A stretch of 64,000 nt of DNA from Demequina gelatinilytica (GTDB lineage: Bacteria; Actinomycetota; Actinomycetes; Actinomycetales; Demequinaceae): assembly GCF_000971115.1 (NCBI RefSeq), contig NZ_BBLV01000005.1, forward strand, positions 98,974 through 162,973. Direction: 5' to 3'. A program made the position numbers and the translations under genes. The first letter of the stretch is position 1. Every line of letters starts with the position of its first letter. The notes under the pieces were generated by a model. That model was not told the DNA's origin and did not search any database. It saw nothing but the letters and a program-made list of their open reading frames with translations. Below are positions 45,174 through 51,482 of the stretch, piece after piece.

Positions 45174-45929
45174 CTACAGCTCGACCGACGCCACCATGTC
45201 GGTGGTGGGCTGCTCCGAGCCGCCCATGGGCTCCTCGGTCACCACGAAGCCGGTCGCGCCCTCCATGTCCATCTCCATGAGCGTCATGAAGCTGCCGTCG
45301 GAGTCGGGCATGAACGTCGGTCCGGCGTGCTTGGAACCGTCCGCCATCACCACCCAGAGCTGGTACTCCATGCCGTCCTCGGGCTCCGGGCAGTCCTCGC
45401 CCATGGCCACGACCGAGGACATCTTGTCGCTCATCACCAGGTGCGCCGCGCCGAGGCCCAGGTCCATCGAGTGAGCATCGGGCGCGCTCGTCACCATCAT
45501 GACGTCGTGCTCGAGCGCGAGCTCCTCGTCGCGGCTGTCGGACAGCGACGAGCCGACCAGGCCGCCCACCGCGAGCACCGCCGCCGCGGCTGCCGCGACC
45601 GCCGCCTTGGGCCACCAGGACCTGCGGGAGGACGATGCCGCGGGAGCCGTCGCAGCCGGTGCCCCCTCGGCGGGCACGGGTGCGTCGTCCGAGGTGATCG
45701 GCGCTGCTTGGGGGGTCCGGGCGATCTCGGCCATGACGCGCGCCTTGAGCGCGACCGGGGGCGCGACGGACTCCGCCTCGCCCAGCACCGCGGCCGCCTC
45801 GCGCAGGCCGGCGAGCTCGACCGTGCAGTCCTCGCATGCGTCGAGGTGCGTCTCGAAGTCCTGCCGTTCGGCGGGCGTGACGGCATCCACCGCGTACGCG
45901 CCGACCAGGGAGTGCACGTTCTGGTTCAT
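45174..45929 (-). CDS. rskA: RskA-like anti-sigma factor
   Basis: 251 residues from ATG 45929, overlapping the sigK stop by 4 bp. The N-terminal zinc anti-sigma domain has HSLVGAYAVDAVTPAERQDF and HLDACEDCTVELAGL (HxxxCxxC). One transmembrane helix WWPKAAVAAAAAAVLAVGGL (about 107). The external domain has LWVVMADGSKHAGPTFMPDS and ends with a Met/Asp-rich stretch. It should hold SigK at the membrane and release it by regulated proteolysis. External Met and Cys (AMGEDCPEPEDG) could sense redox or metals. Confidence 0.9.
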   Translation of the reverse strand: MNQNVHSLVGAYAVDAVTPAERQDFETHLDACEDCTVELAGLREAAAVLGEAESVAPPVALKARVMAEIARTPQAAPITSDDAPVPAEGAPAATAPAASSSRRSWWPKAAVAAAAAAVLAVGGLVGSSLSDSRDEELALEHDVMMVTSAPDAHSMDLGLGAAHLVMSDKMSSVVAMGEDCPEPEDGMEYQLWVVMADGSKHAGPTFMPDSDGSFMTLMEMDMEGATGFVVTEEPMGGSEQPTTDMVASVEL

Positions 45930-46564
45930 CGCGTCCCCTCCCAGGCATCCCGAAGCCGGATCATCGCATCCCTGATACGGGCCTTCGCCGTGCCGAGCGG
46001 GATGTCGAGCGACTCGGCGAGCTGCCGGTTCGTGTAGCCCTTGTAGTACGTGAGCTCGAGCGCCTCGCGCTGGAGCGGCGTGAGCGTCGCGAGCCCGCGG
46101 CGCACGCGTGCGGCGCGCCATTGCGCGTCCATCGCATCGACCACCTGCTCGGGGTGCTCGACGTCTGCGGAGTGGCGGGCGCCGTGTGTGAGGAGGCGGT
46201 CCGCGTGGGACTGCTCGGCGCGCACGCGGTCGACCGCGCGCCGGTGCGCGATGGTGAGCACCCACGAGCGTGCCGAGCCCTGGTCGGGGCGGTAGCGCGC
46301 CGCGACGCGCCACACCTCGACCAGGGCTTCCTGCGCGACGTCCTCCGCGAGGTGGGGGTCGCGGACGATGCGGAGGGCGAGGCCGTGGACCGCGCCGGCG
46401 AGCGCATCGTAGAGCTGCTCGAACGCCGACGCGTCGCCGCGTCCTGAGCGCACCAGCAGGTCGGCGAGCCGCTCGGCATCCCGCCCGGCGCGGGGCGCGG
46501 CGTCTGCGGGGCCGGTGCCGCCGGGCACCGCCCGGAGCCCACCCTCGCGCCGCTGCGCGCTCAT
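45926..46564 (-). CDS. sigK: ECF sigma factor SigK-like
   Basis: 212 residues from ATG 46564, chosen because GGAGG lies 5 nt upstream; GTG 46588 is an alternative. Region 2: SAFEQLYDALAGAVHGLALR, DPHLAEDVAQEALVEVWRVA and YRPDQGSARSWVLTIAHRRA. Region 4: TLTPLQREALELTYYKGYTN, RQLAESLDIPLGTAKARIRD. It pairs with RskA encoded next. Predicted targets are the two CCATCC-N15-CCGAAC promoters of the lipoprotein and dipZ genes just upstream, the same gene neighbourhood that SigK controls in mycobacteria. Confidence 0.92.
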   Translation of the reverse strand: MSAQRREGGLRAVPGGTGPADAAPRAGRDAERLADLLVRSGRGDASAFEQLYDALAGAVHGLALRIVRDPHLAEDVAQEALVEVWRVAARYRPDQGSARSWVLTIAHRRAVDRVRAEQSHADRLLTHGARHSADVEHPEQVVDAMDAQWRAARVRRGLATLTPLQREALELTYYKGYTNRQLAESLDIPLGTAKARIRDAMIRLRDAWEGTR

Positions 46565-46595
46565 GCCGTCCTCCGCATCGTCCGTCACGGGGGCG

Positions 46596-46907
46596 TCAGC
46601 CCTCGTCCTCCATCATCGCGTCCTCGGACTCCATGGCGTCCGGCGACTCCGACATCATCGAGTCGTCCTCCTCCATCATGGTGTCGTCCTCCGACATCGA
46701 CTCCTCGGGCTCCATGGTGGAGTCGTCCTCCATCATCGTGTCCTCGGACTCCATGGTGTCGGACTCCATGGTGTCGGGGTGCATCGTCTCCTCCATCATC
46801 GTGTCGTCCGAGGACGTCGACGCGGGCTCGGTGTCCCCGCACGCCGCGAGCGTGCCGCCCGCGAGCAGGATGAGGGCCGGGACGGCCAGGGTGCGCATTC
46901 GGTACAT
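46596..46907 (-). CDS. Met/Asp/Glu-rich repetitive lipoprotein
   Basis: 103 residues from ATG 46907 behind AGGGAGGAATC. Lipoprotein signal MRTLAVPALILLAGGTLAAC with lipobox Cys. The mature part is almost entirely repeats of the type (D/E)TMMEE, DTMES and SEDDTMMEEDD, with 16 methionines among acidic residues and one His. No folded domain. Acidic-Met clusters can bind Cu(I)/Ag(I) or scavenge oxidants. It lies between dipZ and sigK on the same strand and has its own SigK-type promoter, so it is probably part of a redox or metal stress regulon. Confidence 0.75.
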   Translation of the reverse strand: MYRMRTLAVPALILLAGGTLAACGDTEPASTSSDDTMMEETMHPDTMESDTMESEDTMMEDDSTMEPEESMSEDDTMMEEDDSMMSESPDAMESEDAMMEDEG

Positions 46908-46955: not shown

Positions 46956-46982
46956 GTTCGGTGCGCCGGCGCGACCGGATGG
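46956..46982 (-). promoter_or_regulatory. SigK-type promoter of the lipoprotein gene
   Basis: Minus strand: CCATCC (46982-46977), 15-nt spacer, CCGAAC (46961-46956). Mycobacterial SigK recognises CCATCC-N16/17-CCGAAT. Start of transcription expected near 46949, leaving about 40 nt of leader with a Shine-Dalgarno before ATG 46907. Arrangement is identical to that in front of dipZ. Confidence 0.65.
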
Positions 46983-46990
46983 GTCGCGGC

Positions 46991-48688
46991 TCAACCGAAG
47001 GTGAAGGCGTAGGCCTCGACGCCGGGCGTGAACTCGAGGATCATCACGTCCTCGCGCGGATCGCCCTCCCAGAGGTCGTAGAGGTCCGCCGTGCCGTCGA
47101 CCTTCACGGTCCGCTCGTACGAGTCGTCGTCCAGCAGCGTGACGCGTACCTCGCCCTCGCCGGCCATCACCAGGTGGGCGTCGGAGGCGTAGAAGTTGAG
47201 CATGAGCATCGCGCCCTCGCCCGCGAGCGCGTACTCGTCCGTCACGGTCCATTCGCCCACGTAGGCGAAGTGGTCGGGCTGGGGGAAGGCGTCGTGGCCG
47301 TACGCGACGGGCTCGTCGTGGACCACCTGTCCGCCGTTGTCCGCGTACTGGAGGCGCCCGTAGCCCAGGTAGGTCTCCTGCGTGCGGTCGGTCGTGTGGC
47401 CGCCCGTGTCCATGTCGACCACGTCCTGCGGCGCGGCGTCGAGCAGCTGCTGGATGAGCTCCTCGGTCTCGGCATAGGCGCCCTCGCCGTAGTGGACCTG
47501 CCGCACGGTGCCGGTCTGGTCGATGAGGTAGTGCGCGGGCCAGAAGCGCTGGTCCCACTCGCGCCAGGTCTGGTACTCGTTGTCGATCGCGACGGGGTAG
47601 TCGATGCCGTAGCGCTCCGTCGCATCGGCGACGTTGCCCACCACCTTCTCGAAGGCGAACTCCGGCGTATGCACGCCGATGATGGTGAGCCCCTGGTCGC
47701 GGTACCGCTCGTCCCACGCGGTGAGGTACGGGAACGTGCGCTGGCAGTTGATGCAGCTGTACGTCCAGAAGTCGAGGAGGACCACCTGGCCCTCGAGATC
47801 CGCGAGGTCGAGCGCCTGGCCGTCCTCGGTGTTGAGCCACTCGTCGATGCCGGGCAGGTCGCGCGCGGGTCCGCAGTTCTGGAGCACCGCGGTGTTCGCC
47901 TCGCACTGGTCGAAGCTGAGCGCATCGCCGGTCACGGTCGTGTCGACATCCTCGCGTCCCGTCAGCGAGTCGAGCTCGTCGCGCACCGTGTCCGAGTCCT
48001 CGATCTGGTTCTGGATGCTCGCGAGCTGCTCGGGGACCAGGCGCTGGAGCGGCTCGGCGATGTTGGTCGCGATGACCAGCGCGGTCGCGACCAGCACGGC
48101 GCCGGAGATCGCGCGGATGAGCTGGAGGCGCTCCCGCACCAGCGTGATGCGCGAGAAGATCGCCTGCCCCGCGAAGCCGAAGCCGAGCAGGGGGATCGCG
48201 ATGCCGGCGCTGAACGCGAGCGTCAGCGCGACCAGGCCCCAGCTCACGCCGTTGGTGGCCGCGAGCACCGTGATGGACGCGAGGATCGGTCCCGCGCACG
48301 GCACGAACACGAGCCCGAGCGCGAGGCCCATGACGTAGCCGTTGCCGCCCCGGTCCATCTGCACCGGTCGCACACGCTCGAACGGGCGCTGGAGCAGCTC
48401 GCCCACCTTCGGGATCATGAGGCCGACGCCCACGATCGCGAGGACGGCGATCCCGGTCCACCGCAGGAGGTCGTCAGGAAGGCCCAGGCTCGACAGCAGG
48501 ATGCCGCCCAGGAGCGTGAAGACGGCGAAGCTGGTGACCAGGCCGGCGACCACCACGAGCGGCCGGCGGCGGTTGGCGCCGCCGTCCTGGATCGCGCTGG
48601 TGAGGATCGCGGGAAGCACGGGCAGCACGCAGGGGCTGATGGCGGTGATGATGCCGGAGATCAGTCCGACGAGCACGAGTGTGATCAT
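46991..48688 (-). CDS. dipZ: DipZ-like membrane thiol-disulfide protein (CcdA plus thioredoxin)
   Basis: 565 residues from ATG 48688. N-terminal CcdA domain: LISGIITAISPCVLPVLPAI and GLVFVPCAGPILASITVLAA carry the membrane redox cysteines in about six helices to residue 215. After a linker, an external thioredoxin/TlpA domain has DFWTYSCINCQRTFPYLTAW (CxxC, about 310), and the last 150 residues form the beta-rich DipZ C-terminal domain (YLGYGRLQYAD to YAFTFG). It transfers reducing power from cytoplasm to extracytoplasmic proteins. In mycobacteria dipZ sits with SigK targets, as here. Confidence 0.92.
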   Translation of the reverse strand: MITLVLVGLISGIITAISPCVLPVLPAILTSAIQDGGANRRRPLVVVAGLVTSFAVFTLLGGILLSSLGLPDDLLRWTGIAVLAIVGVGLMIPKVGELLQRPFERVRPVQMDRGGNGYVMGLALGLVFVPCAGPILASITVLAATNGVSWGLVALTLAFSAGIAIPLLGFGFAGQAIFSRITLVRERLQLIRAISGAVLVATALVIATNIAEPLQRLVPEQLASIQNQIEDSDTVRDELDSLTGREDVDTTVTGDALSFDQCEANTAVLQNCGPARDLPGIDEWLNTEDGQALDLADLEGQVVLLDFWTYSCINCQRTFPYLTAWDERYRDQGLTIIGVHTPEFAFEKVVGNVADATERYGIDYPVAIDNEYQTWREWDQRFWPAHYLIDQTGTVRQVHYGEGAYAETEELIQQLLDAAPQDVVDMDTGGHTTDRTQETYLGYGRLQYADNGGQVVHDEPVAYGHDAFPQPDHFAYVGEWTVTDEYALAGEGAMLMLNFYASDAHLVMAGEGEVRVTLLDDDSYERTVKVDGTADLYDLWEGDPREDVMILEFTPGVEAYAFTFG

Positions 48689-48695
48689 GACCGAG

Positions 48696-48722
48696 GTTCG
48701 GCGCGACGATGCGCGGGGATGG
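48696..48722 (-). promoter_or_regulatory. SigK-type promoter of dipZ, leaderless
   Basis: Minus strand: CCATCC (48722-48717), 15-nt spacer, CCGAAC (48701-48696), then only 7 nt to the ATG at 48688. No Shine-Dalgarno is visible, so the transcript probably starts at or within a base or two of the start codon. Confidence 0.65.
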
Positions 48723-51227: not shown

Positions 51228-51245
51228 TTCGCATCGCCGCTCCCG

Positions 51246-51395
51246 CAACATGAGTGGATCGTGTCGCTTCCGTGCTCTCTTGGCGGTCAACCTGTGCGAA
51301 TCGTGTCGCTCGCGCTGCTGCCCGCCTCCGCGCGACACGATTCCCCCACATTGACCGTTCCCGCGGTGCTGTGACGACACGATCCGCACATGTTG
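51246..51395. repeat. 150-bp inverted-repeat element with 64-nt arms
   Basis: Left arm 51246-51309 and right arm 51332-51395 are diverged reverse complements of equal length, both beginning (outside in) CAACATG and ending GAATCGTGTCGC, separated by 22 bp. Each arm contains two copies of a (G/A)ATCGTGTCG core, giving four symmetric cores. No gene inside. Could be a MITE/REP-like element or a cluster of operators for the lipoprotein gene downstream. Confidence 0.7.
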
Positions 51396-51482
51396 ATGGC
51401 GCTGGCACGATTCCGGGCCGTGATTCCCCAGATGTGCGACCAGGTCTTCTGCCAGGGCGGTTTGACCGTTACGGTCTGTTTC

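Follow-up and report, generated by a model that had tools for sequence, protein, structure and literature searches.

Putative SigK-type promoters and linked methionine enrichment at a sigK–rskA locus of Demequina

A 64,000-nt stretch of the Demequina gelatinilytica genome, here called the window, contains two copies of a motif resembling the promoters of mycobacterial SigK, one before dipZ and one before a gene for a methionine-rich lipoprotein. It raises the question of whether these sites are promoters of the SigK-like sigma factor encoded beside them, which proteins they would serve, and to what signal the system would respond. In mycobacteria, the SigK–RskA regulon comprises mpt83, dipZ and mpt70, with one listing adding Rv2871, Rv2876 and mpt53, according to excerpts of PMC3078919; the accessible text of PMC9861118 likewise describes SigK-dependent promoters for mpt83, mpt70 and dipZ. 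Both sources agree with the statement in the original prediction that mycobacterial SigK also controls dipZ. The signal that activates SigK is described as unknown in the available part of PMC7509140. The reading favored here, with a probability of roughly 0.7, is that the SigK-like sigma factor encoded next to them uses both sites as promoters and that the products would form an extracytoplasmic redox module.

Gene content and promoter sites of the window

The gene order on the minus strand is dipZ, the methionine-rich lipoprotein gene, the sigK-like gene and rskA. The features are as follows:

48696..48722, minus strand: predicted SigK-type promoter of dipZ, CCATCC (−35), 15 nt, CCGAAC (−10)
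46991..48688, minus strand: dipZ, 565 aa, with Pfam DsbD_TM, AhpC-TSA and Thioredoxin_10 above cut-off
46956..46982, minus strand: predicted SigK-type promoter of the lipoprotein gene, CCATCC-N15-CCGAAC, 48 nt to the ATG
46596..46907, minus strand: methionine-rich acidic lipoprotein gene, 103 aa, 18 Met, lipobox LAAC
45926..46588, minus strand: gene for a cysteine-free SigK-like ECF sigma factor, with its start 7 nt downstream of the lipoprotein stop
45174..45929, minus strand: rskA, for an RskA-type membrane anti-sigma factor; overlaps sigK by 4 nt
45177..45542, minus strand: methionine-rich RskA ectodomain (122 residues, 15 of them Met), with the membrane span assigned from hydrophobicity

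DipZ combines a DsbD/CcdA-type membrane domain, a TlpA-like thioredoxin domain and a C-terminal Thioredoxin_10 domain, a build that places it among DipZ proteins. The lipoprotein matched no family in the libraries searched. For the sigma factor, the NCBIfam model of SigK (NF007228) was the best of 75 matches at 206.7 bits; this score lies below the curated cut-off of 226, and the protein is therefore designated SigK-like. RskA carries an N-terminal HxxxCxxC motif and scored above cut-off with Pfam RskA_C (69.9 bits against 29.4) and NCBIfam NF052375 (165.5 against 100). RskA_N remained below its cut-off (23.2 bits against 27), and zf-HC2 exceeded its own over the same stretch.

Both sites were found where the original prediction had placed them, adjoining sigK and rskA, and the Pfam and NCBIfam matches agree with the gene content it described. 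The dipZ-side site (48722-48696, minus strand) reads CCATCCCCGCGCATCGTCGCGCCGAAC and the lipoprotein-side site (46982-46956, minus strand) reads CCATCCGGTCGCGCCGGCGCACCGAAC; the spacer is exactly 15 nt in both. Since only 7 nt separate the −10 element CCGAAC from the dipZ ATG, the dipZ transcript is probably leaderless or nearly so. The lipoprotein-side promoter may also serve sigK and rskA, because the stop of the lipoprotein gene lies just 7 nt from the GTG of sigK. With spacers of 12–20 nt allowed, the window contains two matches where 0.19 would be expected; two were also reached in 3 of 100 shuffled windows, so that a chance origin is unlikely, though not negligible, on window statistics alone.

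Conservation, spacing and extent of the regulon

A SigK-like gene was detected in 40 of 44 genus genomes at E 1e-40. Across the same 44 genomes, the motif with a 15-nt spacer occurs 122 times, the backwards-pattern control never, and the N16 and N17 versions together 56 times, or approximately 28 per wrong spacer. Three of the four genomes without a SigK-like match at this threshold still have exact N15 sites, and some N15 sites are therefore due to chance. Within 39 fetched genus sigK/dipZ loci, where spacers of 8–24 nt were allowed, all 47 exact matches have N15.

The position of the sites is equally constrained. All 35 genus loci that could be scored, the window included, place the dipZ site 7 nt ahead of the ATG, with zero, one and two mismatches in 16, 11 and 8 of them, respectively (five of the 40 loci were dropped for lack of dipZ or of a start). 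In the dipZ–sigK interval, 29 of 38 loci contain an exact copy, and the best candidate of the remaining 9 deviates at a single position (two of 40 dropped). The background frequency of sites with at most two mismatches, true sites included, was 3.0e-4 per position over 375,661 positions. The suspicion of mere chance matching, which the 3 of 100 shuffles could feed, is refuted as exceedingly improbable by the fixed register (35/35), the presence in 38 of 38 loci and the restriction of the spacer to 15. The genus comparison thus supports the assignment in the original prediction, and strongly indicates SigK-type promoters.

The spacer had been predicted to be 1–2 bp shorter than the mycobacterial N16/17. 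This claim was rejected, as mycobacteria also use N15. A mycobacterial-group SigK query gave 88 sigK loci, and the best 80 of these, mainly mycobacterial, were compared. With spacers of 8–24 nt allowed, N15 accounts for 54 of their 64 exact matches and occurs in 53 of the 80; among 20 dipZ loci of mycobacteria, it accounts for 15 of 16. The N15 spacer here is thus the normal SigK spacer, and the promoters belong to an established type, with a target that was in part already known. Two mycobacterial dipZ loci (L125 and L126) have an exact site at the same 7-nt distance from the ATG. Counted by eye, 15 of the 20 have CGAAT at this distance from the start codon, the −35 element frequently being degenerate. 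The near-leaderless layout of the dipZ promoter would accordingly be common to the genus and mycobacteria. Record titles in the 80-locus set are mostly Mycobacterium or Mycolicibacterium, some giving only Mycobacteriaceae, Actinomycetes or Actinomycetota. Three loci (L148, L170 and L179) are titled Bifidobacterium breve MAG; their SigK proteins are 79–84% identical to the mycobacterial query, and the titles are probably mislabelled.

The original prediction spoke of a local regulon and suggested a genome scan for the motif. That scan returned eight matches to the N12–20 pattern in the same genome, three of them with N15: the two window sites and a third exact site, G000:C15:70983-71009, which lies 38 nt upstream of the gene for a redoxin-like lipoprotein (L061 4945-4319; Pfam AhpC-TSA). 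A convergent gene (L061 2440-3342), termed ccdA-like on motif and position as Pfam and NCBIfam gave no meaningful match, has CCGTCC-N15-CCGAAC upstream, a one-mismatch site read from the sequence. The comparison supports a regulon, and these two sites make the word local too narrow.

Similar targets recur in the genus. Sixty-one further stretches, one of them from the same genome and the other 60 from elsewhere in the genus, contain 65 exact sites, which comprise 22 before redoxin-type genes, six before ccdA-like, two before OpuAC-type and one before fasciclin-type genes, as classed by sequence motif, with Pfam run only on proteins of L061, L008, L084, L237, L020 and L015. The remaining 34 have no gene class, a number near the approximately 28 matches per wrong spacer. 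Seven of the 122 genus N15 sites fall outside the fetched stretches. An OpuAC-type lipoprotein gene lies downstream of an exact N15 site in three genus genomes (L086, L229 and L237); the call rests on Pfam for L237, and L086, OpuAC-like by eye, is among the 34 unclassed. Mpt53 is a thioredoxin-like protein, and the redoxin target found here resembles mpt53 of the M. tuberculosis SigK regulon. The accessible text of PMC3078919 lists mpt53 among the M. tuberculosis SigK targets. What is new is what these promoters would serve, namely extracytoplasmic thiol-redox proteins together with a methionine-rich acidic lipoprotein.

Methionine enrichment of RskA and the lipoprotein

The RskA ectodomain averages 10.7% Met (8.2–13.8%) across 38 genus loci, against 1.1% in the cytoplasmic part (two of 40 RskAs were dropped as too short). 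Seven paralogous RskA ectodomains of the same genus have 0–1.7% (one of eight dropped). Pooled values for other RskA ectodomains are 3.0% in six further loci of the same family, 2.1% in the order (six loci), 2.1% in the class (14 loci, those of 29 that passed the ORF rule), 2.0% in the phylum (23 loci) and 2.9% in mycobacteria (77 of the 80 loci; maximum 9.2%).

An alignment of the 38 genus ectodomains with 61 others, thinned by a fixed rule, contains fourteen columns in which 40% or more of the genus proteins have Met, a share that reaches 80% or more in nine of them; two columns are Met in 38 of 38 proteins and four in 35–36 of 38. At the nine columns, polar or charged residues, Gly, Ala or Val are the most frequent in the 61 others, and Met is outside the five commonest. 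We read these columns as mainly surface positions.

The lipoprotein shows a corresponding enrichment. It is present in 37 of 40 genus sigK loci, some of which have two, and the 43 mature genus lipoproteins consist of 21% Asp, 20% Glu, 18% Met and 15% Ser, with 1.1% His. Met residues spaced 5 or 6 positions apart occur at twice the frequency seen in shuffled sequences, and Met-x-Met and Met-x-x-Met were seen once and not at all, respectively, against 74 and 73 in shuffles. The MXKDX model (TIGR02953; BcrX type) gave no match to the window lipoprotein at E 10, and matched the L007 counterpart (20.7 bits) and the linker of a fasciclin lipoprotein in L008 (22.2 bits) weakly, below the cut-off of 41. 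Fasciclin lipoproteins resembling MPT83, with a methionine-rich linker, lie beside dipZ paralogues in the genus (L008, L012–L014) and in family f9 (L016), the fasciclin identity resting on Pfam for L008. Several genus genomes also have a second SigK–RskA-like pair (L053–L060), with SigK about 50–54% identical; the seven RskA ectodomains readable there show no methionine enrichment.

Two sigK loci within the genus, L034 and L047, are without dipZ and the lipoprotein; the ectodomain of L047 has 5.5% Met (7/128), and that of L034, broken in frame, was left uncounted. A third, L042 of genome G151, has no lipoprotein at its sigK locus and an RskA with 9.8% Met. The same genome encodes, away from that locus (L258), a redoxin-type lipoprotein with a long methionine-rich linker, preceded by an exact site.

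Outside the genus, the prediction that methionine-rich RskA and lipoprotein occur together was examined partly after the fact, and the genomes with such pairs are related and represent few independent events. Methionine-rich lipoproteins also lie beside dipZ in families f3 (L019, L020, L309, L310 and L311) and f7 (L015). The f3 ectodomains have 5.0–5.6% Met (L020, L310 and L311), and f3 genomes G052, G081 and G095 combine RskA ectodomains in this range with a Met-repeat lipoprotein beside dipZ and N15 sites at 0–2 mismatches. Genome G050 (f17) has 10 Met in 123 ectodomain residues (8.1%) and an exact N15 site followed by a lipoprotein-like frame with four Met in 36 mature residues and no ordinary start codon. 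L309 and L015 have the lipoprotein but no such promoter site, the best candidates having at least three mismatches. At L309 (4757, minus strand), the lipoprotein beside dipZ joins methionine-rich repeats to a CxxC thioredoxin-like part.

Some RskAs are richer in methionine without a detected partner. In L216–L218, the SigK loci of M. peregrinum, M. septicum and Mycobacterium sp. GA-1841, RskA has 6.7–9.2% Met and no methionine-rich lipoprotein was found in 16.5 kb; M. peregrinum also has the SigK locus L159. None was detected near L103, L131 (both of one genome) and L299, a group of two mycobacterial-type loci and one other with RskA at 5.8% Met, or near L219 (5.9%).

Candidate signals and related systems

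The regulatory circuit that we propose from these comparisons would operate as follows. The SigK-like factor would drive dipZ from the near-leaderless promoter and, from the second promoter, the lipoprotein and through it sigK and rskA, so that the system is probably autoregulated; it probably also drives the redoxin lipoprotein and CcdA-like membrane protein genes of the same genome. DipZ and the CcdA-like protein would relay electrons through the membrane to thioredoxin-like domains, and the methionine-rich lipoprotein would act as an oxidizable sink. RskA would hold the sigma factor until an oxidant changes its ectodomain, the release cue probably being an oxidant that attacks methionine.

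The last step can be stated more specifically, and more tentatively. SigK–RskA in this lineage could be a methionine-oxidation sensor, in which oxidation of ectodomain methionines by HOCl, singlet oxygen or similar oxidants would release the sigma factor, which in turn would supply the methionine-rich sink and the thiol redox chain; we place this proposal clearly below even odds. The proposal is plausible, and the interesting part of the system is that methionine is enriched in sensor and target together. With both the sensor ectodomain and a target lipoprotein loaded with methionine, it offers a direct, testable hypothesis for the SigK signal. If correct, it would describe an anti-sigma factor that senses through methionine, and would suggest extracytoplasmic oxidation as the SigK–RskA signal elsewhere too. 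The weak point is how oxidized methionine would be reduced. No methionine sulfoxide reductase tied to the regulon was found: the D. gelatinilytica genome has a single match each for MsrA and MsrB but none for PF00174 (MsrP-type), and MsrB, the only one of the three searched beyond this genome, matches once or twice in 40 of 44 genus genomes. Because PF00174 is absent and MsrA and MsrB are single genes, the lipoprotein may be sacrificial or otherwise reduced.

The strongest competitor, to which we give not quite an even chance, is an ordinary SigK regulon with the promoters and targets of mycobacteria but without methionine-based sensing, in which the methionines are a quirk of the lineage and the signal is, for example, disulfide state or proteolysis triggered by an unrelated cue. 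In M. tuberculosis, according to the available part of PMC7509140, a SigK disulfide and RskA proteolysis are involved, and the methionine-richer RskAs without a detected partner described above also fit this alternative. Against it, the cysteine pair that forms the redox disulfide in M. tuberculosis is absent from the window protein, which has no cysteine. Among 40 genus SigKs, counted from the aligned region to the stop, 34 have none, four have one and two have two, and the M. tuberculosis cysteine switch cannot operate in the 34 that lack cysteine. The same excerpts note that natural cysteine-less SigKs occur in Nocardia and that M. smegmatis has no sigK–rskA (PMC7509140). The nine ectodomain columns that are predominantly Met in 38 genus proteins, and at which Met ranks outside the top five in 61 others, as well as the seven paralogous RskAs without enrichment, also argue against a quirk.

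Methionine could instead serve metal binding. Copper biology offers known examples of both methionine-rich proteins outside the cytoplasm and TlpA/CcdA-like proteins, and in such a scheme the lipoprotein and the RskA ectodomain would bind Cu(I), with DipZ, the CcdA-like protein and the redoxin serving copper delivery or oxidase assembly. Cu(I) sites usually have Met-x-Met and Met-x-x-Met spacings, however, and the near absence of both from the lipoproteins, with their low His content, weakens this explanation, which we consider unlikely.

The proposed redox module shares with the mycobacterial SigK–RskA regulon the −35 and −10 words, the N15 spacer and the DipZ target, and differs in the short methionine-rich lipoprotein beside dipZ and sigK, the cysteine-less SigK and the methionine-rich RskA ectodomain. 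Other bacteria provide a second comparison. In BcrS–AbcS with BcrXQP of Brucella and MrpX of Azospira, a methionine-rich repeat protein adjoining ECF sigma and anti-sigma genes is a proposed oxidant sink, as excerpts of PMC8315932 describe. The likeness lies in the sigma/anti-sigma pair with a methionine-rich neighbor, the Met spacing being about five residues here. In contrast, those systems belong to ECF16, use other promoter words and have an MsrPQ partner, whereas the window genome has no PF00174 match; BcrX-type MXKDX proteins are approached only by the sub-threshold matches in L007 and L008, and not by the window lipoprotein. HprS of E. coli senses HOCl via periplasmic methionines (accessible text of the review PMC10151825), in the manner proposed here, although HprS is a histidine kinase and RskA an anti-sigma factor. 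Among the matches listed in the PMC literature, which covers a minority of subscription papers, we found no report of RskA sensing through methionine or of a SigK regulon that includes a methionine-rich lipoprotein.

Two reports fit an oxidation signal loosely. In a soil actinobacterium, RskA declines during UV exposure and comes back during recovery (excerpts of PMC8965627), and in M. kansasii, mpk83 and mpk70 are light-induced but dipZ is not (accessible text of PMC9861118).

Elsewhere in the window, positions 51239-51402 contain four related repeats of approximately 22 nt, two direct (51246 and 51288) and two inverted (51333 and 51375). The members of each pair are 42 nt apart, and the arms are 77–91% complementary.
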